The notes under the pieces were generated by a model that saw only the letters and a list, made by a program, of their open reading frames with translations, was not told where the DNA came from and made no database searches. A stretch of DNA of 64,000 bases from Microbacterium trichothecenolyticum (lineage in GTDB: Bacteria > Actinomycetota > Actinomycetes > Actinomycetales > Microbacteriaceae), in the NCBI RefSeq assembly GCF_030818955.1, contig NZ_JAUTBF010000001.1, positions 434,001-498,000 on the forward strand, read 5' to 3'. The number at the start of each line of letters is the position of its first letter. The stretch's first letter is position 1. A program made the translations under genes and the position numbers. Shown in pieces: positions 28,246 through 38,997 of this stretch.

Positions 28246-29559
28246 CTACAGGCGGGCGAGCCGCATGGTGGCCGTCGCGCTGTGGGCGGCCATGCCCTCG
28301 GAATCCGAGATCGTCTGAACGGCCGGGGCTAGGGCATCCGTCGCAGCACGAGAGACCGCCTGATACGTCAACGGCTTGAGGAAGCGCGCCACCGAGAGCC
28401 CCGCGCTGTGCTTGGCGCCGCCGGCCGTCGGCAGAACGTGGTTGGTTCCCGCCATGCCTTTGTCGGAGTACGCGACCGTGCTCCACGGGCCGAGGAACAG
28501 CGAGCCGTAGTTGCGGAGCGCGTCGTGGTACCACGCGTCGTCGCCGGTGATCACCTCGAGGTGTTCGGGGGCGAGGTCGTCCATGAGCTCGACCGCCGTC
28601 GCGCGGTCGGAGGCGACGAGCACCGTCCCGTAGTCGCGCCACGCGGCGCCCGCAATGTCGCGGGTCGCGAGGCTCGCGAGCTGCCGCTCGATCTCGACGA
28701 TGACCGCGCGTCCCAGTTCTTCGGAGGTCGTGATGAGTGCGGCGGGCGAGTTCGGGCCGTGTTCCGCCTGCCCGAGCAGATCGGCGGCGACGAGTTCGGC
28801 ATCCGCCGTGTCGTCGGCGACGACCGCGACCTCGGAGGGCCCGGCGAGCAGGTCGATCGCGACGGTGCCGAAGAGCTGCCGCTTGGCCTCTGCCACGTAG
28901 GCGTTGCCGGCGCCCACGATCATGTCGACCGGCAGATCGGCGACCAGGCCGTGGGCGAGTGCGGCGAGTGCCTGAACGCCACCCAGCACGAAGATCCGAT
29001 CGACGCCCGAGACGTGGGCCGCGTACACGACGGCGTCGTTCGCGTCACCGTCGGGTTGCGGCGGGGTGCAGGCGACGGCCGTGGGCACGCCGGCGGCCTT
29101 GGCGACCCCGATCGTCATGAAGGCGCTCGCGGTGAGCGGGAAGCGGCCGGCCGGGAGGTAGGCGCCCACCCGCCCGACGGGGATGTACCGCACTCCTGTG
29201 CGCACCCCGTCGACGAGTTCGAGCTCGAAGTCGACGAGCCGCTCGCGCTGCGCGGCGGCGAACGCACGGGTGCGGGCACCGCCGAGCTCGATCGCCTCGC
29301 GCAGGGCCGGTGCGAGGCGATCTCCCGAGCGCGCGATCTGGGCCGGCGTGAGCTCGATGTCGCGCCCGTCGTATCGGTCGAGCCGTCGGGCGTAGTCGAG
29401 CACCGCGTCGATGCCGCGCGCTTCGATGTCGAGGAGCATTCTGCTGACGGTGTCGATGACGGCCGGGTTGCGCTGCGCGGCGGGTGCATCGACGGCGGGG
29501 GACTTCAGGAACTGGAATCTGCCCTCGTGGCGAGCGAGGACCGCGGGCGTGAATTTCAT
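28246..29559 (-). CDS. HisD-like dehydrogenase, probably catabolic (HpsN type)
   Basis: A 437-residue NAD-dependent alcohol dehydrogenase of the histidinol dehydrogenase family. Active-site residues match HisD (E332-H333 in PEHLE, D366, H426), as does the Zn-site segment QAEHGPNSPA. The segment around 357-380 reads GPWSTVAYSDKGMAGTNHVLPT. In biosynthetic HisD this stretch has PE..GDY.AG.NHVLPT, whereas AY(G/S)DK..GTNH is typical of the catabolic branch that includes sulfopropanediol dehydrogenase HpsN. It is divergent from a LysR gene, with no other his gene adjacent. Confidence 0.85.
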   Translation of the reverse strand: MKFTPAVLARHEGRFQFLKSPAVDAPAAQRNPAVIDTVSRMLLDIEARGIDAVLDYARRLDRYDGRDIELTPAQIARSGDRLAPALREAIELGGARTRAFAAAQRERLVDFELELVDGVRTGVRYIPVGRVGAYLPAGRFPLTASAFMTIGVAKAAGVPTAVACTPPQPDGDANDAVVYAAHVSGVDRIFVLGGVQALAALAHGLVADLPVDMIVGAGNAYVAEAKRQLFGTVAIDLLAGPSEVAVVADDTADAELVAADLLGQAEHGPNSPAALITTSEELGRAVIVEIERQLASLATRDIAGAAWRDYGTVLVASDRATAVELMDDLAPEHLEVITGDDAWYHDALRNYGSLFLGPWSTVAYSDKGMAGTNHVLPTAGGAKHSAGLSVARFLKPLTYQAVSRAATDALAPAVQTISDSEGMAAHSATATMRLARL

Positions 29560-29565
29560 ACGCTC

Positions 29566-29586
29566 ACGCTAGGCCATACGTATGCA
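29566..29586. promoter_or_regulatory. HisD-like promoter with LacI-type operator A
   Basis: On the minus strand TAGCGT (29566-29571) ends 7 nt before the ATG at 29559. The palindrome ATACGTAT (29576-29583, within GCCATACGTATGCA) lies 5 bp upstream of that -10, in its spacer. The same 8-mer occurs at three other promoters in the region. Confidence 0.65.
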
Positions 29587-29637
29587 CAGCACAACGGGAT
29601 ATTAACCAGGAGGAACCAACGGACATACCATTGGCTC

Positions 29638-30633
29638 ATGTCGATCACCCTCGCGCAATTGCGTGCGTTCCTCGGGGCATTCGAACTCGGCTCGTTCACC
29701 GCGGCGGGCAACGAGTTGGGAATGGGGCAGGCCTCGGTCTCGGAACTGGTGGCGCGTCTCGAGGCAGAGATCGGCGCGCCGCTGTTTCACCGGCGACCAC
29801 GCCGACTGGTGCCGACAGAGGCTGCGCGCACGCTGCGCGAACACGCGTGCCGCTCGGTAGACGCCGCCGATCAGGGGGTGGCGGCCGTGCAGGATCTCTC
29901 GCGACTCCAGAGCGGTACGTGCACGTTCGGTGTGCTGCGCAACGCCGCGTACTACCGGCTGTCGACGCTGCTGCACGATTTCCATCGCGCCCACCCCGGG
30001 GTGAGCGTGCGCATGGTCGGGCTGAACTCCGCGCTCGTTGCTCGATCCATCGCGAACGGTGAGCTCGAGGCGGGGCTCGTCGTGCTGCCCGTCGACGACG
30101 CCGGACTCACGGTGCGCCCGGTACTCCGCGACGAGGTGCTCTTCGCCTTCCCGACGGGGTCGCTGCGCGAGACCGCGGTCGGAATCGACGACGTCGCCGC
30201 ACGCAAGCTCGCGCTGTACGACGCCTATGCGGGCTGGGATGACCCGACACGCCGACAGCTGCGGGAGCGGGCTCGTCTGGCAGGCCTGACGCTGCACGCC
30301 GCGATCGAGGTCGAGAGCGTCGAGACGGCCCTCGGTCTCGTCGCGCTCGGCGAGGCCACGACGATCGTCGCGTCGCGGATCGCAGAGGCTCCGGGTTTCC
30401 CCGCCGGCGTCTCGGTCGTTCCGTTCGCCGAGCCGCTCTACGACACCATCGCCCTCGTTCACCGGGAAGGCGCCGTCCTCTCGCCGGCGACGCGGCGCAT
30501 GTCGGAGATGGCCATCGACCTGCTGCAGACCGCGCCGGCGTCGCCTGCTTCGGCTTCCCCGCGCACGCACGAGCCGTTGCTGGCCCACGAGGGTGTCGAC
30601 ACGAGCGGCGCCTCGGACTCGTCAGCGACTTGA
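29638..30633 (+). CDS. LysR-family transcriptional regulator
   Basis: A 331-residue LysR regulator. The N-terminal HTH reads ITLAQLRAFLGAFELGSFTAAGNELGMGQASVSELVARLE, followed by the periplasmic-binding-like effector domain. ATG 29638 was chosen from the family N-terminus; the frame is open far upstream but only as the complement of the HisD-like gene. AGGAGGA lies about 25 nt before the ATG, too far to be a normal Shine-Dalgarno. The gene is divergent from the HisD-like dehydrogenase, its likely target, and shares operator A. Confidence 0.92.
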   Translation: MSITLAQLRAFLGAFELGSFTAAGNELGMGQASVSELVARLEAEIGAPLFHRRPRRLVPTEAARTLREHACRSVDAADQGVAAVQDLSRLQSGTCTFGVLRNAAYYRLSTLLHDFHRAHPGVSVRMVGLNSALVARSIANGELEAGLVVLPVDDAGLTVRPVLRDEVLFAFPTGSLRETAVGIDDVAARKLALYDAYAGWDDPTRRQLRERARLAGLTLHAAIEVESVETALGLVALGEATTIVASRIAEAPGFPAGVSVVPFAEPLYDTIALVHREGAVLSPATRRMSEMAIDLLQTAPASPASASPRTHEPLLAHEGVDTSGASDSSAT

Positions 30634-30708
30634 CTCTGTCGCAACGTCAACCGACAGGGTGATGTTCATGACCGCGAACGGGGGGCGATCGACCGGTCGA
30701 TCTATGCG

Positions 30709-30942
30709 ATGCCCATGTTCGTGAATATCGTCGTCAGCGACCTCGCGGCATCCGAAGCGCTCTATGCCGCAGCGGGGTTCGTGACTCTGGCGACCATCCC
30801 CGGGCCGGGCGGCGTGCCGGCGCTCATGCACCTCGGGCTCCTGGAAGAGCGCCGAGACAGAGCCGACGACGACCCGCGCCCGCACCACCTGCGCCGGAAC
30901 CACCCGCCCCCGCAGCGCACCGGCATCACCCTCGACCGGCGC
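30709..30942 (+). pseudogene. VOC (glyoxalase-like) gene remnant
   Basis: The first 42 codons from ATG 30709 read a normal VOC domain start (MPMFVNIVVSDLAASEAL, then AGFVTLATIPGPGGVPALMHL). After this the frame degenerates into Arg/Pro-rich sequence, and a short piece RTGITLD that fits the next VOC strand reappears near 30918. The C-terminal half is missing where the nitrilase gene ends. I read this as a decayed, truncated gene. Confidence 0.65.
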
Positions 30943-31758
30943 TCAATAGAGCGCGGGCCGGCGATCCGCGAACAGGTCGTTGTGGGGCGGCAGGGACTTG
31001 TCGGCGACGGAACCGAGCGGCAGGTCTCGCAGCACCTGCATACTGTCGCCCGACATCGTCGCCGGGGTGAACCATCCCTCGTGGTCGACGATGCCGCTGC
31101 CGCCGGTCCATTCGACTCCGCGCTCGGTTCCGTGCCGATCCGCGATCACGATCGGCAGGCGTGAGGAACGCGCCGCCGCCATCGCCTGGATCACCTCCGG
31201 GGGGTGCTCCCCGGGCGGACGATCCACCAGGGGCCAGTTGACGGGCAGTGCGAGCACGTGCGTACCGGCGAGTGCGAGGCGCCGCGGCACTTCGGGAAAC
31301 TCGTTGTCGTAGCAGATCGCCACCGCGAGCCGTCCGATCACGGTGTCGAACAGCGCTCCCGCGGCGTTCCCGGCGCGAAAGACGAGCTTCTCTCGCCCCC
31401 AGAGGTGACTCTTGCGATAGGAGCCGACCACACGGTCACGCTCCAACACGAGCGCGGAGTTGAACACCTCGCCGCCGCCGGCGGCCTCGGCGTATCCGAC
31501 GACCGCGACGGTGTCGTGGCGGAGCGCCGTACGCAGGTGCCCCCACCGCGGATCCGCGGGGTCCAGCGCTGCCCGCGCGGCCTCGGCCCGATCAGTGAAG
31601 ACGTAGCCGCTCGTCGAGAGTTCGGGGGCGACGATCAGGCGTGCACCGGATGCCACGGCTTCGGCGATCGCCGCCCGAATCCGCTGCAGGTTGTGCTCGA
31701 CGTCGCCCAGCACGACGGGCGGTGACACCGCTGCCGCACGAACCGTCCGGTTGTCCAC
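30943..31758 (-). CDS. Nitrilase-superfamily carbon-nitrogen hydrolase
   Basis: A 271-residue amidase-type enzyme with the complete nitrilase triad: E46 in IVAPELSTSG, K116 in SYRKSHLWG and C149 in VAICYDNEFPE. The start is GTG 31758, 22 bp after the stop of the NTF2-like gene, so the two are co-transcribed. Members hydrolyse amides, N-carbamoyl compounds or nitriles; the substrate here is not known. It is the last gene of the minus-strand catabolic run. Confidence 0.92.
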   Translation of the reverse strand: MDNRTVRAAAVSPPVVLGDVEHNLQRIRAAIAEAVASGARLIVAPELSTSGYVFTDRAEAARAALDPADPRWGHLRTALRHDTVAVVGYAEAAGGGEVFNSALVLERDRVVGSYRKSHLWGREKLVFRAGNAAGALFDTVIGRLAVAICYDNEFPEVPRRLALAGTHVLALPVNWPLVDRPPGEHPPEVIQAMAAARSSRLPIVIADRHGTERGVEWTGGSGIVDHEGWFTPATMSGDSMQVLRDLPLGSVADKSLPPHNDLFADRRPALY

Positions 31759-31780
31759 GTCGTTCGCCGCCCCCGAGGAC

Positions 31781-32761
31781 TCAGTAGATGTTCTCGAAGC
31801 CGACGGGCTCGTCGCCGCGTGCGCCGGCGATCTGCGCCCGCAGGGCGATGTCGTCCCACAGTCGTACCTCTTTCACCAGTCGCCCCTGATAGAGCGTGAA
31901 CTGCGAGATGCCGAGCACATCGACGGGCGCGCCGGTGCGTGCGCCGTAGCGTTCTACGCCGGTGTAATCCCCGACGAACTTCCAGGTGATGGCGACGCGC
32001 AGGCCGGCGTAGCGCTCGTTGTCGTTGGTCTGGATGTCGCGCACCTCGAAGCGACCGCCGGGGAATGCCTCCAGCAGGCGGAGCAGCGACCGGCGGTAGC
32101 CCTCGGGGCGCACGATCACGGCATTGCCGACGGTCAGCAGAACCAGATCGCGGTCCCAGAAGCGTTCGACCTTGTCGAGTTCTCGCGCGTTCCACACCGT
32201 CTCGATCATCTCGAGTACGTGATTCACCGCGTCCGGGTGGTCGTCCGGGCGTTCGCCCGAGTCGCCCAGGAGGCGCGGGGCGGCCGGGGCCGGGCGCAGC
32301 CACGATCCGGAGTACCCGCGAAATGCCTGGCTGCGGGCGAGCTCGTCGAGGTCGGCGCCGTGCTGAAGCGCGCCGGCGAGACTGTCGCGGACGACCCACT
32401 CCTCGACCATCCGACCGCGGCGGTACAGGCAATTGGCGATCGTACGGCTGTGCTCGCCCGAGATGATGTCGGACGAGAGCAAGAGGTGCGAGCTGAGGAA
32501 AGCGTCGTCGCCGCGAGCCTCCCAGATGACGTCATCGGCCTGCCCCACCCGGTCGGGCGTGGCGGCGATACGCATGAGCGAGCCCTCGATCACCTCTTCG
32601 CGGGTCGTGGAGGTGCCGTACGAGCCGTGCACGATGGAGTCCGGCTCGTAGTTCTCCCGGATGAAACCGATCGATCGGTCGACCCAGATGAAGTCGGTGA
32701 CCTCGCGGATGAAGTCGTCGGGGTCCGCGTAGGGGGCGTACGCGATGGGGTCCAGTGCCAT
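31781..32761 (-). CDS. Tandem SnoaL/NTF2-like protein
   Basis: A 326-residue protein with two NTF2-like (SnoaL) domains, roughly residues 10-150 (DDFIREVTDFIWVDRSIGF) and 180-320 (HVLEMIETVWNARELDKVERFWD). Such folds serve as cyclases, dehydratases, isomerases or binding proteins, and this sequence does not identify one. ATG 32761 follows a purine-rich AGAAAGAGAAG. A longer frame to 33010 is rejected because it crosses the lacI stop. It lies upstream of the nitrilase-family gene in one unit with operator B in front. Confidence 0.8.
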   Translation of the reverse strand: MALDPIAYAPYADPDDFIREVTDFIWVDRSIGFIRENYEPDSIVHGSYGTSTTREEVIEGSLMRIAATPDRVGQADDVIWEARGDDAFLSSHLLLSSDIISGEHSRTIANCLYRRGRMVEEWVVRDSLAGALQHGADLDELARSQAFRGYSGSWLRPAPAAPRLLGDSGERPDDHPDAVNHVLEMIETVWNARELDKVERFWDRDLVLLTVGNAVIVRPEGYRRSLLRLLEAFPGGRFEVRDIQTNDNERYAGLRVAITWKFVGDYTGVERYGARTGAPVDVLGISQFTLYQGRLVKEVRLWDDIALRAQIAGARGDEPVGFENIY

Positions 32762-32816
32762 GTTCTTCTCTTTCTGTCCGTCGGTGTGCTCCGGCTCGGG
32801 TGAGGCCGGGTGGGTG

Positions 32817-32830
32817 CGTATACGTATGTA
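32817..32830. promoter_or_regulatory. LacI-type operator B
   Basis: CGTATACGTATGTA contains the palindrome ATACGTAT (32820-32827), 59 bp upstream of the NTF2-like gene start and in the gap after lacI. A TATACG on the minus strand overlapping it could be the -10. Confidence 0.6.
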
Positions 32831-32871
32831 CTGCAGGATGTGTGTGCCCCAAGGGAGGGGCGCCGTTGGGG

Positions 32872-33873
32872 TCAGACGGCCGCGGGACCGAGGGTGCCGC
32901 GCTCGACGAACTGCGCCACGAACTCCCGCCGCTGCGGCGGAGGTGTGAAATCGTCGATGCGCTCGACGATCAGCTCTGCTGCGACACGCGCCATCTCTTC
33001 GTAGTCGCACGCGATCGTGGCGAGATCGATCACGGGCCAGCGAGCCGCCGGCAGATCGTCGAATCCGACCACCGAGACCCGGCCGGGCACAGCGACCCCG
33101 GCGCGGTGTGCGGTGTTGAGTGCGCCGAACGCGACGAGGTCGTTGGCGCAGAAGAGCAGCGACGGCATCTCCGCGTTCTCGGCCAGCAGGCTCTGCATCG
33201 CTTCTTCGCCCGCGTCGCTGTCGAAGGTCGCGCGCCGGACGAAGCGCTCGTCGACCGCGATGCCGTGAGAGGTCAGAGCATGTCGCAGCGAGGTCTCGCG
33301 CGCACGCGCCGTGCTCGTGGCGACTGGTCCCAGGATCGCGCCGGCTCGGCGGTGCCCCAGTGCGGCGGCGCGCTGCGCGGCGGTGTCGTACGCGGCATCC
33401 GGTGTGACGACCACGGCATCGGCCTCGACCGACGAGCTCGTCCGATTGAAGTACACGAAAGGGATGCCGCGATCGCGCAGCCGGATCGGGGTCACCGACT
33501 CGACGGGGGGAGTGGCGAGCACGACGCCGTCGACGCCTGCCGAGACGAGGCGTTCGACGATGCCCTCGTCGTCTGAGGACTCGGTCTGCAGCGTCAACTG
33601 GTAGCCGAGTGTGGCGAGGCGCCGATGCACGGGGGCGATGATGCGCACGTAGAACTGGTTCTCGAGGTCGGTCACGAGCAGGGCGATGCGTCGTGTGCGC
33701 CCCGACGACAGGGTCCGCCCCGCCTCGCTGCGCACGTAGCCCAGCTGGGCGGCCGCTTCGCGCACGACCTGCTTGGTGCGCTCGGAGACGCGCGGGTCAT
33801 CGCGCAGGGCCCGTGAGACGGTCGGTTGCGAGACTCCCGCCAACCGTGCAACCTCGTGGCTGGTCACCGGCAT
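32872..33873 (-). CDS. LacI-family transcriptional regulator
   Basis: A 333-residue repressor: HTH VTSHEVARLAGVSQPTVSRALRDDPRVSERT at residues 3-33, hinge AGRTLSSGRTRRIALLV, then the sugar-binding-like effector domain (NQFYVRIIAPVHRRLA, FCANDLVAFGAL, VSVVGFDDLPAARW). ATG 33873 has GGAGGG upstream. It lies 68 bp after the second permease gene and 110 bp before the NTF2-like gene, all in one direction. Its probable operator is the ATACGTAT palindrome found four times nearby. Confidence 0.93.
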   Translation of the reverse strand: MPVTSHEVARLAGVSQPTVSRALRDDPRVSERTKQVVREAAAQLGYVRSEAGRTLSSGRTRRIALLVTDLENQFYVRIIAPVHRRLATLGYQLTLQTESSDDEGIVERLVSAGVDGVVLATPPVESVTPIRLRDRGIPFVYFNRTSSSVEADAVVVTPDAAYDTAAQRAAALGHRRAGAILGPVATSTARARETSLRHALTSHGIAVDERFVRRATFDSDAGEEAMQSLLAENAEMPSLLFCANDLVAFGALNTAHRAGVAVPGRVSVVGFDDLPAARWPVIDLATIACDYEEMARVAAELIVERIDDFTPPPQRREFVAQFVERGTLGPAAV

Positions 33874-33941
33874 CGCTCACGCCCTCCGTTTCGTTCTGTT
33901 CGCAACACTAGCCGCGGGCTGCCCGCGGACGCCGGAGGCGC

Positions 33942-34838
33942 TCATCCCTTCACCGCGCCGTCGCTCAGACCCGAGACCAGATACTTCTGCGCGACGAACG
34001 CGATCACCACGACGGGGATCGTCAGCAGGATGGATGCCGCTCCCGCCTGCTGCAACATCGGAAGGTTTTGGCCCAGTTGCGTGGCGATGAAGACCGGCAC
34101 GGTCTTCGACGAGGTGTCGGTGAGCACCACGGCCGTCAGGTACTCCTGGAAGGCGAACAGGAAAACGAAGATCGCGGCGGTCAGGATGCCGGGGCCCATG
34201 AGGGGGATCATGATGCGCCGCAGCACGGCGAAGCGTCCGCAGCCGTCGAGCATGGCGGCCTCATCGAGCTCGCGCGGCACCTCGGCGAAGAAGTTGCGCA
34301 GCAACCAGATCGTGAAGGGCTGGTTGATCGCCACGAGCGCGATGGCGAGGGCGAACGTCGTGTCGTAGATGCCGAGCGCGCGACTGATGTCGTACATCGG
34401 CAGAACGACGGCGAAGCGGGGAAGTGCCCGGAATACCAGCGCCAGCACGAGCAACCACGCCGATATCCAGCTCGGGAACCGGGAGAGCGCGTATGCCGCC
34501 GGCAGACCGATCGCGAGGGCGACGATCGTCGCGATCGCCGCCACCGCGACGGTGTTGACCAGGTAGTCGGCGAAGTAGGTCGTCTCCCAGAGATTGACGA
34601 AGGCGTCGAACGTGGGCTGATACCCCCAGATGACGGGAGGGTTCAAGAAGGCGATGTTCGTCGGCTTCGTCACGGAAAGGGCCATCCAGATGAATGGCAC
34701 GACCATGACGATGCACAGCACCGCGAGCAGGATGCCGCTCGTCAGCCGAGATCGTGCGGCCGGTCGACGCCGCGTCGCGCGCGCCGGTGCGCCGGCGGGC
34801 GCGATCGGGTCGGCGGTGTGCGTTCGAGTCGAACTCAT
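33942..34838 (-). CDS. ABC sugar-type permease, MalG-like
   Basis: An inner-membrane permease of 298 residues with six predicted helices and the EAA loop ELDEAAMLDGCGRFAVLRRI, characteristic of CUT1-type carbohydrate importers. The first 40 residues are a polar, Arg/Ala-rich N-terminal tail. ATG 34838 overlaps the stop of the MalF-like gene (ATGA); the longer frame to 35618 is the complement of that gene in another phase. No ATP-binding subunit is encoded next to it. Confidence 0.93.
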   Translation of the reverse strand: MSSTRTHTADPIAPAGAPARATRRRPAARSRLTSGILLAVLCIVMVVPFIWMALSVTKPTNIAFLNPPVIWGYQPTFDAFVNLWETTYFADYLVNTVAVAAIATIVALAIGLPAAYALSRFPSWISAWLLVLALVFRALPRFAVVLPMYDISRALGIYDTTFALAIALVAINQPFTIWLLRNFFAEVPRELDEAAMLDGCGRFAVLRRIMIPLMGPGILTAAIFVFLFAFQEYLTAVVLTDTSSKTVPVFIATQLGQNLPMLQQAGAASILLTIPVVVIAFVAQKYLVSGLSDGAVKG

Positions 34839-35707
34839 GACAGGGCCTTCGCTTCCCGGAAGACGGTGCGGATGAAGGGGATCAGCATCACGAGGATGAT
34901 GCCGATGGTGATGACGTTCACGGCGCTGCCGAGCCCGAGCTGCTGTGCACCGTTGGCGAAAGCGATCGAGTAGACGTACATCATGATCGACTCGTTGCCG
35001 ATGGTGGCGGCCTGCGGCGACAGCGGGATGAGGCTGTCGAAGGTGCGCAGGACGTCCATGATCGTGATCAGCGCGACGAATCCCAGGGTGGAGCGGATGG
35101 TCGGGATGATCACGTGCAGGTGCATCTGCCACGCGTTGGCCCCGTCGATCGTGCCCGCCTCGATGATCTCGGCCGGCACGCCCTGCAGGCCCGCCATGAT
35201 GACCAGCACGGCGAACGGGAGCAGGAACCAGACCGTGTTGGCGATGATGATGGCCGCGTTCGGCAGCTGGTCGGTGAACCAGAGCACCGGGGTGCCCCCG
35301 AGCATCTGGATGACCCGGTTGACCAGGCCGCCGAAGCTGTCGTCGAACAGCCACGAGAACGCGACGGCTCCGACGAGGTTCGGCAGCACGTAGGAGATCA
35401 GCAGGATGCCGAGCACGAGCGGACGCGACACGCCGAGGCGATCGGTCGCCGAGGCCACGGTGTAGCCCAGCGCGACGAGGATGACGGTGCTGATGACGGT
35501 GAGCGTGACGGTGAACATCACCGCTCGTCCGAACCGCTCGTCGGTGAGAGCGCGCACGAAGTTGTCGATCCCGACGAACGTCCCCGGATTTCCGTAGGAC
35601 ACGTTTTGCAGACTCCACTCGATGGTGCGGAGCAGCGGCAGGATGAGCAGCGCTCCCATGATGAGCACACTGGGGAGCACGAGAGCCCAGAATTCTCGTT
35701 TGCGCAC
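34835..35707 (-). CDS. ABC sugar-type permease, MalF-like
   Basis: A 290-residue permease, MRKREFWALVLPSVLIMGALLILPLL, with the EAA segment EAGTIDGANAWQMHLHVIIPTIRS. It pairs with the next gene to form the membrane channel of a CUT1-type importer. It follows the solute-binding protein gene by 84 bp and overlaps the second permease by 4 bp. Confidence 0.93.
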   Translation of the reverse strand: MRKREFWALVLPSVLIMGALLILPLLRTIEWSLQNVSYGNPGTFVGIDNFVRALTDERFGRAVMFTVTLTVISTVILVALGYTVASATDRLGVSRPLVLGILLISYVLPNLVGAVAFSWLFDDSFGGLVNRVIQMLGGTPVLWFTDQLPNAAIIIANTVWFLLPFAVLVIMAGLQGVPAEIIEAGTIDGANAWQMHLHVIIPTIRSTLGFVALITIMDVLRTFDSLIPLSPQAATIGNESIMMYVYSIAFANGAQQLGLGSAVNVITIGIILVMLIPFIRTVFREAKALS

Positions 35708-35791
35708 AGTTCTCTTTCGTTCGAATGGCCGAGGTCGGGCCCGTGACGGCCGGTCTGCGCGAGGAGACCGACCGTCACGGGCGAGGCGGGA

Positions 35792-37099
35792 TCAGCCGAC
35801 GATCTGCTCTCCGAGGCTCTGCATCTGTGCGAGTCCGTCGCTGACCGACAGCTCGCCGTTGATCACCTTGGCGAGCACCGGGGTGATCGCGTTGCTGATG
35901 TCGGCGAGGTGCGGTGAGACGACGGTGGGCATCGCCGAGGCGATCGACTCGTTGGCGGCCTTGCCGTATGGGGTGTTGCTTTCGGTGACGAGTCCTTCTC
36001 GGGCCGGGTACGCCGCCGGGACCGACGCCTTGGACGCGTCCTCGCTGACCGATGCGGCCATGAGGGTGAACAGCAGATCGTGATCGATCGAGGTGTTGAA
36101 CGGGATCGACCACCCGTCGATGCTCAGTCGGTCGTACGCGTACGGGGCGTCGGCCGAGACCTTCGGTGGGGCGGCGAAGGCGAAGGAATCCGACAGGGAC
36201 GTGTTCTCGGGCTTGGTGAGGTCGGTCATGCGCCCCGAGAACATGATCGCCATTGCGGCGGTGCCGTTGTAGAGCTGCTGTTGAACTTTGGGCTGATCGA
36301 ACGTGGTGACCTGCGGGTCCATGTACGGCTTGAGAGCGAGCATGGCATTGAGAGCCTTCTCGCCGGCGTCGGACTCGATCGTCACCGCGCCCGAGTCGTC
36401 GACGAAGTCTGCGTCGAGGGAGTTCATGGCCGCCTGGAAGCCGGTCGTGATGTCTGCTGTCGCCAGCCAGGGCAGTGCGATGGGGTACTGCATCAACCCG
36501 GCTGCCTTGATCTTCTCGGCCGCTGCGGCCATCTCGTCGAACGTGGTCGGCACGGCCAGGCCGAGCTCGCTGAAGACGTCGGAGCGGTAGGCCATGACGA
36601 ACATCTGCGCCTGCATCGGGAGGGCGTAGAGCTTGCCGTCGTACGACATGCCCTGGAGCATCGACGGGCTGAGGTCGCCGAGCTTGTATTGGTCCTTGTA
36701 CTTGGCGTACAGGTCGTCGAGCGGCTGGAGCTTCTCCGTCGAGGCGAGGGTCGGGATGACGTAGCTGTACGTCTCGACGATGTCGTACGTGCCGGTCGGC
36801 GCCGACAGCGTGGCCGTCGTCTTGGTGACCTGGCCGCCGAAATCGATCGGGTCGTGCTTGACGGTCACGCCGTCGTGCGAGCAGCTCGTGGCCATCGTGT
36901 CGGTGTAGGGGTCGATGGCGGAGGAGTTGTACGCAAGCACGTTCACGGTGAGCGGCTCGGAGGGCGCGGTCACGTCGCAGGCGACGGAGGTGGAGTTGGC
37001 GTTGCCGGTGCGACTTCCGGCACCGCAACCGGTGAGGGCGAGGGCGGTGACGCCTACGACCGCGACGAGGGCGGTAAGGCGGGTGCGAGTGTTGGGCAT
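35792..37099 (-). CDS. Extracellular solute-binding lipoprotein (CUT1 family)
   Basis: A 435-residue substrate-capture lipoprotein. The signal peptide MPNTRTRLTALVAVVGVTALALTGC ends in the lipobox LTGC with C25 as the lipidation site. The mature part has family-1 binding protein features (SMLQGMSYDGKLYALPMQ, AYRSDVFSELGL). I chose ATG 37099 because it gives a clean signal peptide and TATACT ends 7 nt upstream; an ATG at 37120 lies inside the promoter. It heads the run of permeases, lacI, NTF2-like and nitrilase genes. Confidence 0.93.
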   Translation of the reverse strand: MPNTRTRLTALVAVVGVTALALTGCGAGSRTGNANSTSVACDVTAPSEPLTVNVLAYNSSAIDPYTDTMATSCSHDGVTVKHDPIDFGGQVTKTTATLSAPTGTYDIVETYSYVIPTLASTEKLQPLDDLYAKYKDQYKLGDLSPSMLQGMSYDGKLYALPMQAQMFVMAYRSDVFSELGLAVPTTFDEMAAAAEKIKAAGLMQYPIALPWLATADITTGFQAAMNSLDADFVDDSGAVTIESDAGEKALNAMLALKPYMDPQVTTFDQPKVQQQLYNGTAAMAIMFSGRMTDLTKPENTSLSDSFAFAAPPKVSADAPYAYDRLSIDGWSIPFNTSIDHDLLFTLMAASVSEDASKASVPAAYPAREGLVTESNTPYGKAANESIASAMPTVVSPHLADISNAITPVLAKVINGELSVSDGLAQMQSLGEQIVG

Positions 37100-37105
37100 G
37101 CAGCG

Positions 37106-37119
37106 AGTATACGTATGCA
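37106..37119. promoter_or_regulatory. SBP promoter with LacI-type operator C
   Basis: AGTATACGTATGCA holds ATACGTAT (37109-37116). On the minus strand the -10 TATACT (37106-37111) is embedded in it and ends 7 nt before the ATG at 37099. Repressor bound here would block the promoter directly. Confidence 0.7.
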
Positions 37120-37194
37120 CGCTCGCCGCACAACGAGGAATACGCGTTCTGACGTGTAAAATCTACCGTCATTTGCGTTTACTCGCCAGTAACA

Positions 37195-37208
37195 TGCATA
37201 CGTATAGC
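37195..37208. promoter_or_regulatory. LacI-type operator D before the MFS gene
   Basis: TGCATACGTATAGC holds ATACGTAT (37198-37205). TAGCAT (37205-37210) on the plus strand could be the -10 for the MFS gene starting at 37260. Confidence 0.6.
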
Positions 37209-37259
37209 ATTTCGTGATCGTCTCCCGCCGGCACGTTCGGCACGTTCAAAGCAGCCCTC

Positions 37260-38414
37260 GTGAACTCTTCTCCTCGCCCGCGCACCTCTGTCCCTCGTGA
37301 GCTTCTCGTCTTCACCGGTGTCGCTGCGTTCTTCGCGGCGACCGTCTACTTCCCTCAGACCCTGGCGCCGGCGATGGCGGCGTCATTCGAAATCGACGCC
37401 GCCGGGCAGAGCGCCGTGACCGGCGCGGTGCAGTTGTCGTACGGGGCAGCGATGCTCGTGATCGTGCCGCGGGCCGATCGCGCGAACCCCCGAACCCTTC
37501 TCGCCCTGTTGCTCGCGGCGAGCGCCGTCGCGGCCCTCGCGTTCGCCGCTGCGCCGTCTGCCCCCTTCGCGGCGGGGATCGGCATCGTGCTCGGTCTCAG
37601 CGCGGGTGGCGCGCAGGTCTGCGTGGTCTACGCCTCGAGTGTGGCTCTCGCGCCCCGCGGCGTCGATCGCCGAGCGCGAGACGGGATGCCGTGGGCGATC
37701 AGCGGCATCCTGCTCGGTGTGATCGTGTCGCGTCCCGTGGCGACCACGTTGGCGGCGTGGGCGGATTGGCGCTCGGCCTTCGTGGTGCTGGGGCTCGTCA
37801 GCGCGGTGCTCGCGGTGTTCGTCGAGTGGGCCGTCCCCTCACGTGCCGTGTCTTCACCTGCCCCGCACCCTCGCCTCGAACCGGCGGCAGAGGGCGTGGT
37901 CAGAAGCGCGCTGCACGCGCTCGGCTCGCGGCACATCTGGGCGTGGGCGCTGCCGCAGTCTTCGCTCTTCGCGGTGCAGTGCGCCTTCTGGGCCATCGCC
38001 CCGTTCCTGCTCACCGCGCGGTTGGGAGAAGTGGATGCCGCGTTCTCCCTGTCCGTCATCAGCGTGGCCGCCGTGAGCGGCGTGGTCGTGAGCTTCTTGC
38101 TCGGCCGGGTCGGTCGGGTGCGCCACCCGCGCGGAACGCACGCTCTCGTGTTCGCGACAGGGGCGCTCGGAGCACTCGGTCTGGTTCCGGCGGATATGGC
38201 TGCCGGGGTCGTGGTGGTCGTGCTGCTGTTTCTCGCGGCGATCGTGCTGGACGGGTCGGTCGCAGCCGGGCAGACGGTCGCTCAGCGCGAGGCGATGCGT
38301 CTCGGCCCGACCGCGAGCGCCCGGGCGAACGGTGCGTACATGGCGATCGTGTACGCGGGGGGCGCGCTCGGAAGCGCGGTAGGAGGCCTGCTCTTCCAGT
38401 GGTTCATCTCGTGA
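37260..38414 (+). CDS. MFS transporter
   Basis: A 384-residue, 12-helix major facilitator protein (ELLVFTGVAAFFAATVYFPQTLAPAMAASFEIDAAG), of the drug- or metabolite-efflux type by general appearance. The start is GTG 37260. It is divergent from the solute-binding protein gene across a 160-bp region that carries operators C and D, so it is probably controlled together with the importer. The substrate is unknown. Confidence 0.87.
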   Translation: MNSSPRPRTSVPRELLVFTGVAAFFAATVYFPQTLAPAMAASFEIDAAGQSAVTGAVQLSYGAAMLVIVPRADRANPRTLLALLLAASAVAALAFAAAPSAPFAAGIGIVLGLSAGGAQVCVVYASSVALAPRGVDRRARDGMPWAISGILLGVIVSRPVATTLAAWADWRSAFVVLGLVSAVLAVFVEWAVPSRAVSSPAPHPRLEPAAEGVVRSALHALGSRHIWAWALPQSSLFAVQCAFWAIAPFLLTARLGEVDAAFSLSVISVAAVSGVVVSFLLGRVGRVRHPRGTHALVFATGALGALGLVPADMAAGVVVVVLLFLAAIVLDGSVAAGQTVAQREAMRLGPTASARANGAYMAIVYAGGALGSAVGGLLFQWFIS

Positions 38415-38457
38415 CCCCGCGCCGACGCGCCGGCTGACGGCGGTCGTCGGCCCGCGA

Positions 38458-38997
38458 TCAGAGGGCCGAGCGGGTGTGGATGTCGCTCTCGCCCGAGACG
38501 CCGTTGAGCTCGAGGTACACGCGTCCCTCGGTGCGGGTGAGGGTCGCGGTGCTGCGCCGTTCGATCGCGCCGCTCATCCGCTCGACGAAGCCTGCATCGA
38601 AACTGTGCAGCAGCACCTCGTCGCCGCGGTGGATGCGCTTGCCCGCCCAGGCCGCGGCGACCTTGTCGGGATCGCGGTGGGTGTACACGACGGTCCGCGC
38701 AGCCTTCATGCTGCCGGTGTGCAGGCGCGCGGCATCCGGAGCGCCGACTTCGATCCACGCAACGATCGAACCGGTGAGATCGTGCACGAGCACGGCGGGC
38801 TCGTCGGTCGCGGCGACGCCCTCGCTGAAGGCGATGCCCTCCTCGTACTCGAGGCAGTAGGCGAGCACGCGCGTGAGCATGTATAGGGCCGTCTCGGAGG
38901 GATGCCGCGCCACACGGATCGACAGTTCGTCGTACACGCCGCGATCCACGTCGGAGAGCTGCACGGTGAACGTGTGAATGGTTGCGCCGATAGCCAC
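38458..38997 (-). CDS. YaeQ family protein
   Basis: A 179-residue soluble protein matching YaeQ (HTFTVQLSDVDRGVYDELSIRVARHPSETALYMLTRVLAYCLEYEEGIAFSEG). The family has a PD-(D/E)XK nuclease-like fold but no firmly established role. The start is GTG 38997, with TAGGCT ending 9 nt upstream. It is divergent from a small gene at 39062. Confidence 0.9.
   Translation of the reverse strand: MAIGATIHTFTVQLSDVDRGVYDELSIRVARHPSETALYMLTRVLAYCLEYEEGIAFSEGVAATDEPAVLVHDLTGSIVAWIEVGAPDAARLHTGSMKAARTVVYTHRDPDKVAAAWAGKRIHRGDEVLLHSFDAGFVERMSGAIERRSTATLTRTEGRVYLELNGVSGESDIHTRSAL

Follow-up and report, generated by a model that had tools for sequence, protein, structure and literature searches.

Here, we describe a gene cluster of Microbacterium trichothecenolyticum that lies in a 64,000-nucleotide stretch of its genome (RefSeq assembly GCF_030818955.1, contig NZ_JAUTBF010000001.1, positions 434,001 to 498,000 of the forward strand; this whole stretch is called the window, and positions are counted from its first letter) and that is very probably a local regulon of its own LacI-family regulator, which is predicted from sequence to bind sites with the core ATACGTAT. 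In minus-strand order, the cluster encodes a solute-binding lipoprotein (35792..37099; PF01547, SBP_bac_1, E 8.8e-26), the CUT1-type permeases A (34835..35707; BPD_transp_1, GlcT/MalF/UgpA-like) and B (33942..34838; BPD_transp_1, MalG/GlcU-like), the LacI-family regulator (32872..33873), a tandem SnoaL/NTF2-like protein of 326 amino acids (31781..32761; PF07366) and a carbon-nitrogen hydrolase, that is, an amidase of the nitrilase superfamily (30943..31758; PF00795, CN_hydrolase, E 6.2e-32). It is flanked by a plus-strand LysR-family regulator gene (29638..30633; PF03466 and PF00126) and a minus-strand gene for a HisD-family dehydrogenase, HisD1 (28246..29559; PF00815, E 6.5e-126), and, beyond the solute-binding protein gene, by a plus-strand MFS transporter gene (37260..38414; PF07690, E 8.3e-22). 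Pfam searches confirm the families that a preliminary description of this DNA had assigned (HisD, LysR, CN_hydrolase, SnoaL, LacI, two BPD_transp_1 proteins, SBP_bac_1 and MFS). The LacI protein combines a LacI helix-turn-helix domain (PF00356, 53.4 bits), with the recognition helix GVSQPTVSRALR, and a periplasmic-binding-like ligand domain (PF13377, 100.8 bits), both above the cut-off. Between the LysR and amidase genes, a short stretch (30709-30945) resembles a cut-off small gene; the 77 residues tested have no Pfam match.

By exact search, the window holds four copies of ATACGTAT, at precisely the coordinates that had been picked out by eye: operator 1 (29576..29583) in the divergent HisD1/LysR gap, operator 2 (32820..32827) upstream of the SnoaL gene, operator 3 (37109..37116) upstream of the solute-binding protein gene, as the proximal site of the importer gap, and operator 4 (37198..37205), which is both the distal site of the importer and the site upstream of the MFS gene. 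No strand is assigned to these sites. All four are intergenic, as claimed, by gene calls that combine the open reading frame list with family searches. The statement that the window contains no other copy extends to the whole genome, a single contig of 3,735,270 bases in which these four are the total. An order-1 model of window composition predicts 0.04 copies per 64 kb and about 2.3 for the genome as a whole; shuffles of the window likewise give an expectation of 0.04, with four copies in 0 of 100 shuffles. The sites span 7,630 bases, and the probability that four random sites fall within one 7.63 kb span is about 3e-8; for this genome, an 8-mer equally common at random positions, named beforehand as a refuting outcome, is excluded.

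The centres of the four sites lie 13.5 to 62.5 bp from start codons, and those of operators 1 and 3 are so near to theirs (20.5 and 13.5 bases, respectively) that the transcripts there may be leaderless. The longer sequence TGCATACGTATGCA, which had been proposed from aligned flanks, is still a fair consensus, but the flanks are looser than it implies: each window site departs from it at 2-3 positions, and among 74 cluster sites (70 from relatives and the window's four, from which the motif used below was built) G is favoured at the second and C at the thirteenth position. A genome search with TRYATACGNATNYA for wider members of the motif gave no match; this pattern misses the window's own four sites as well, so the result is uninformative.

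Among 198 same-genus genomes, including its own, a LacI match at E 1e-40 was obtained in 37, and 26 of the 197 other genomes hold an orthologue with 57-65% identity, giving 27 LacI-bearing genomes with its own included; identity drops from 57% to 39% for the next match. Around the 26 orthologues and three weaker matches, 20 kb were fetched. The conserved core in these relatives consists of the CUT1 importer, LacI, the tandem SnoaL protein, the nitrilase-type amidase, LysR and a HisD-like dehydrogenase, and in 25 of the 26 there is an extended cluster, which encodes the solute-binding protein, permeases A and B, an alpha/beta hydrolase, an HpaI-type aldolase, a short-chain dehydrogenase/reductase (SDR), a second HisD-family protein (HisD2), LacI, SnoaL, a bicupin, the amidase, LysR and HisD1 (four of the 25 have no detected amidase and two have it at another position; two stretches end before the solute-binding protein gene). 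The window has the compact form, which lacks the aldolase module (second HisD, SDR, HpaI-type aldolase, alpha/beta hydrolase and bicupin), and a similar compact cluster is found at locus L060 (genome G161). When three parts of the module were sought elsewhere in the M. trichothecenolyticum genome, the bicupin gave no match in a search run without a positive control, the aldolase only a 36% HpaI homologue, and HisD only HisD1 and one other protein. None of the 29 same-genus loci that were fetched gave a match over half the length of the window's MFS gene.

In the extended clusters, the sites in homologous gaps are conserved, including that in LacI's own gap. Exact copies of ATACGTAT are present in the HisD2/LacI gap of 25/25 extended loci and at the proximal importer site of all 23 whose stretch reaches that gap; 22 of these 23 have a second exact copy in the importer gap, spaced 55-68 bp from the proximal site (the spacing in the window is 89 bp), and L058 has one copy only. 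A fourth conserved site, TGCATACGCATACA, is located in the LacI/SnoaL gap of 25/25 extended loci and corresponds to operator 2. At L060, the motif finds TGTATACGGATACA before the solute-binding protein gene, and in two Propionibacteriaceae a match lies at the 5' end of HisD, where the exact start codon is uncertain. This pattern bears on whether the sites could be promoter elements or sequence remnants that serve no regulator. TATAC overlaps the palindrome and could be part of a -10 element, but a -10 element would not require the full two-sided palindrome to be conserved as strictly as it is, also at the distal importer site a further 55-68 bp upstream, and we regard such an explanation as extremely improbable.

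The preliminary description had proposed that co-occurrence of the motif and the LacI orthologue be checked in relatives, and the outcome is positive: the mean number of 8-mer copies per genome is 4.11 in the 27 LacI-bearing genomes and 1.24 in the 171 without the orthologue. In the LacI-bearing genomes, 74 of 111 copies are situated in the fetched clusters, with a mean of 1.37 outside, and in 13 of the 27 every copy falls within the fetched stretch; for G065 and G132, where the stretch stops before the importer gap, the cluster counts are lower bounds.

A contig scan with an alignment of five SnoaL proteins yielded 58 loci in genera and groups that include Microbacterium, Plantibacter, Subtercola, Lumbricidophila, Nocardia, Amycolatopsis, Streptomyces, Propionibacteriaceae, Desertihabitans, Microlunatus and Agilicoccus (one, L081, is a record named Planococcus that carries a Microbacterium-type cluster, the name being probably wrong). 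Combined with the window and the 26 relatives, and after removal of identical SnoaL DNA, these gave 67 distinct loci. LacI with at least 40% identity is present in 62 of the 67, and at least one motif match is found in 62/62, at least two in 61 and at least three in 53. Across all 67 loci there are 220 matches, compared with 8 in reversed sequence, and none lies inside a detected cluster gene. The 35 loci that had not contributed to the motif, many of which are close kin of training loci and thus not evolutionarily independent, have at least two matches in 35/35 (118 in total versus 7 reversed) and the exact 8-mer in 34. The LacI recognition helix follows the pattern QP..R in 59 of the 62 loci, down to 46% overall identity; it reads QA..R in L060 and L084 and is unreadable in L116. 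Sites of the ATACGGAT type occur at L060:6347, L084:5719 and L102:9951. A joint change of helix (QP to QA) and site in L060 and L084 was considered as evidence and dropped, as L102 has a QP helix with a TGCATACGGATACA site; such a co-change is no more than a hint. The five loci outside the 62 are L093, L094, L106, L100 and L117, of which the first three have no motif site; in Microbacterium sp. K24 and EST19A, SnoaL has a second copy, at L093:10001-10978 and L094:10001-10978. In L113 (Streptomyces) and L102 (Amycolatopsis), the cluster contains an MFS gene, and a homologue of the ATP-binding cassette (ABC) importer was not detected at either locus.

These loci also help to decide between the two regulators of the cluster. 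The LysR protein is encoded divergently from HisD1 around operator 1 and was detected in 26/26 same-genus relatives, so it could in principle be the protein that binds ATACGTAT and activates the cluster. Nonetheless, 14 of the 62 LacI loci keep the sites without a LysR of at least 40% identity in the fetched stretch (four of these stretches are shorter than 14 kb, and LysR may lie beyond them). Moreover, the LysR-HisD1 region of the 26 relatives contains no counterpart of operator 1 above 8 bits, in contrast to the LacI/HisD2 gap, where 25 have a site, and the importer gap, where 24 do and two are unreached. LysR sites are usually interrupted dyads, which also counts against LysR, and we consider its binding to these sites very unlikely.

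The cluster is not restricted to Actinomycetota. A tblastn search of plasmids with the SnoaL protein returned 53 records, all below 60% identity, of which we examined 18: four from Deinococcus, two each from Sinorhizobium medicae and Novosphingobium, and others from Phaeobacter, Pantoea, Roseomonas, Roseibium, Ensifer, Alloyangia, Martelella, Vibrio, Priestia and Ruegeria. Three of the 18 loci are without annotation, and the collection's gene table has gaps. Among the 15 annotated loci, LacI is present in 14, hisD in 12 and a CN-hydrolase or amidase in 11; CUT1 parts are encoded in 12 of them and an MFS transporter in the remaining three. Deinococcus taeanensis has the full extended gene set. 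In these loci from Deinococcota, Bacillota and Proteobacteria, 10 contain the exact 8-mer, five an above-threshold variant and three neither. With an Arthrobacter plasmid locus added as a nineteenth, there are 22 exact copies versus four of a control string, and 30 motif matches versus five in reversed sequence. That Arthrobacter plasmid encodes a 65% HisD2 homologue, and the 21 kb examined have no annotated LacI or SnoaL and no site. In Deinococcus, Pantoea, Phaeobacter, Sinorhizobium (ml29) and Priestia, motif matches are positioned in or beside gaps between cluster genes; the exceptions are in Phaeobacter, where one of four exact copies is outside the cluster and another inside the SnoaL gene. 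In Vibrio pelagius (L150:13203-20930), the SnoaL/CUT1 genes adjoin genes for Fe(3+) dicitrate uptake and siderophore receptors.

In the proposed model, a LacI dimer would, when inducer is absent, occupy each of the four pseudo-palindromes around ATACGTAT and block the importer operon, the SnoaL-amidase operon, HisD1 and the MFS gene. The 68-base gap between the permease gene and LacI contains no copy of the site, so LacI is probably co-transcribed with the importer and would, as part of that operon, repress itself. Once the compound enters, it or an intermediate would bind LacI and the sites would be released; repression relieved by an imported inducer is proposed because the sites adjoin importer, enzyme and regulator genes. 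The system resembles local catabolic regulons of the PurR, RbsR and CcpA type, whose operators are palindromic and CG-centred with AAACGTTT-like cores: it shares with them the LacI helix-turn-helix and Peripla_BP_3 domains, an even palindrome centred on CG near LacI's own and the target genes, sites next to importer and enzyme genes and, in the extended clusters, a site in the regulator's own gap. It differs in its core, which is ATACGTAT and not AAACGTTT-like, and in how unexpectedly widely operator and gene set have been kept.

Several observations weigh against a LacI regulon as described. For 11 of the 220 motif matches, no gene start was detected in the nearest 400 bases, and L060 has no exact 8-mer and one relaxed site only. 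L100 and L117, stretches of 3.7 and 12.5 kb without a LacI match, hold one motif match each, the Vibrio locus has a match and no annotated LacI, and three of the 18 non-actinobacterial loci have no match despite a LacI that is annotated or read. At least three copies of the 8-mer are found in 23 of the 171 genomes without the orthologue, and one of the genomes without it, G117, has nine, perhaps used there by another regulator. No consensus promoter emerged from a strict sigma-70 scan of 29500-38500, and the claim of a -10 element embedded in the operator at 37106 is not confirmed by it; TATACT overlapping the site at 37109 is plausible as such by eye only. Finally, for the SnoaL protein and the amidase, the roles given below are guessed from family names.

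Some of the same observations would fit a conserved regulator encoded outside the cluster that binds the motif, while LacI answers to a different site: genomes without the orthologue still average 1.24 copies, the three distant loci have LacI without a motif match, and in genome G157 other LacI paralogues (38-40%) stand beside perfect motif copies, so that motif and orthologue are not one to one. On the other hand, copies beyond the fetched clusters do not exceed background, and the 21-kb loci of the SnoaL paralogues without LacI (L093 and L094) are also without a site, which leaves an outside regulator, in our view, very unlikely. G157 has only two copies of ATACGTAT (L061:249 and L061:11015), both in a perfect TGCATACGTATGCA directly after TTGACA, and their neighbours include, besides the two paralogues, an SsuA-type binding protein, arylsulfatase-like and threonate-kinase-like proteins and a HisD2/SDR pair. 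Taken with these reservations, the observation of the sites is confirmed, and more strongly than had been claimed, and the interpretation of the cluster as a LacI regulon is supported as a prediction. The sites, their uniqueness, their conservation and their linkage to LacI are established here; repression, inducer, operon structure and chemistry belong to the model.

HisD-family enzymes convert a primary alcohol beside an N- or O-bearing carbon to the carboxylate, as is established for HisD and HpsN. HisD1 had been called HpsN-type, and HpsN is in fact the nearest solved relative of HisD1 (8v35, E 3.8e-109, versus E 2.2e-74 for the HisD structure 4g07) and also of HisD2, but the motif for sulfonate recognition is absent. 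According to PMC11382572, the HpsN signature GRY[A/S]H ends in His126, which contacts the sulfonate, and the Glu-His catalytic pair, together with Asp-Lys and with the Gln/His zinc ligands, whose roles are given there, aligns in HisD1 (the comparison covers HisD1 only); in place of the signature, the alignment shows GRFPL in the window's HisD1. GRFPL recurs in 46 of 48 HisD1-type proteins of the fetched actinobacterial loci, and GKYPL or GRYPL in 55 of 57 HisD2-type proteins; in the remaining two of each type the pattern caught a different string or nothing, one such string, GRVGA, also standing just before GRFPL in the window's HisD1. A sulfonate pathway, which we had considered, is weakened by the missing His126 motif, and HisD1, which lacks the signature, should on this sequence evidence not be filed as a 2,3-dihydroxypropane-1-sulfonate (DHPS) dehydrogenase. 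Histidinol dehydrogenase belongs to the same family as HisD1 (PF00815); a separate genomic HisD at C1:1104168 is 36% identical to the HisD2 query, and HisD1 is therefore probably not needed for histidine synthesis.

The importer has an SBP_bac_1 protein and a pair of MalFG-type permeases and no MalK-type ATPase among the cluster genes, as is the case for CUT1 sugar importers served by a shared ATPase of the MsiK type; a single OB_MalK match lies elsewhere in the genome. In contrast, four homologous alphaproteobacterial clusters hold their own ugpC ATPase. The SnoaL protein is 56-78% identical to 36 aligned relatives, out of the 58 loci found, and its AlphaFold model (predicted local distance difference test score, pLDDT, 83.8) gives SnoaL-fold matches; the 50 matches listed are SnoaL and NTF2-like relatives that each cover about one of the two domains, a result that does not settle which reaction the protein carries out. 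An amidase recurs in two unrelated families and an aldolase-type enzyme as HpaI or RraA, and this recurrence suggests an amide-bearing, polyol-like substrate with a carbon chain ending in pyruvate. A small polyhydroxylated compound would be taken up by the CUT1 importer, probably powered by the genome's single MalK-type ATPase; the amidase would cleave a C-N bond, the HisD-like enzyme would convert a terminal CH2OH to a carboxylate and the SnoaL protein would rearrange or hydrolyse an intermediate, and in most relatives the added aldolase module would complete the breakdown.

A second motif is found in the importer gaps of many relatives. AGGCTTYCC begins exactly 21 bases before an operator in 35 of 43 importer gaps; these 35 are all of its plus-strand occurrences in the 67 loci, and there is none in reversed sequence. 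It resembles, and may be, a DtxR/IdeR-type iron box. The iron-box-like TTAGGCTTCCCTAA or its core lies upstream of the proximal LacI site at L042:2470-2483 and in 34 other importer gaps, and the strict form TWAGG-N4-CCTWA in 13 of the 43. It is absent from the window, two other compact clusters and five extended ones. A search of four genomes with TWAGGNTWNCCTWA found 11 places, two of them in the LacI cluster; of the nine outside places, six were tested, and five of these, in three genomes, adjoin a haem oxygenase, FecCD/siderophore-binding or siderophore-interacting gene. The sixth, the only such place in G033 (L127), adjoins a GmrSD gene.

Putting these elements together, we tentatively propose, as a possibility that we would not favour over its negation, a regulon that would have spread across phyla along with its LacI and its operator, in which an amide-bearing polyhydroxylated compound would be degraded via two HisD-family dehydrogenases, SnoaL proteins and a pyruvate-type aldolase (HpaI or RraA), and in which the iron-box-like importer site of most Microbacterium-type relatives would point to an iron-linked substrate such as a plant or microbial chelator. 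That the regulon has spread by transfer is a guess. The preliminary description knew of no described pathway with this gene set, and literature searches on the gene set and the motif likewise turned up no relevant paper among the matches listed; for a benzoxazinoid link, no paper combined all four terms sought.

An 8-mer spotted by eye has in this way led to a testable regulon. Its gene set is common to Actinomycetota, Deinococcota, Bacillota and Proteobacteria and is undescribed among the literature matches listed. The novelty lies in a widely shared pathway that is undescribed as far as these searches show, and in the extent to which its operator is conserved. The cluster also adds to the HisD superfamily enzymes that lack the substrate motifs of both HisD and HpsN. 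The strict operator provides a handle for finding further members in other genomes, and a screen for growth substrates could use named carriers of the cluster, such as Microbacterium sp. Leaf320 and Leaf151.

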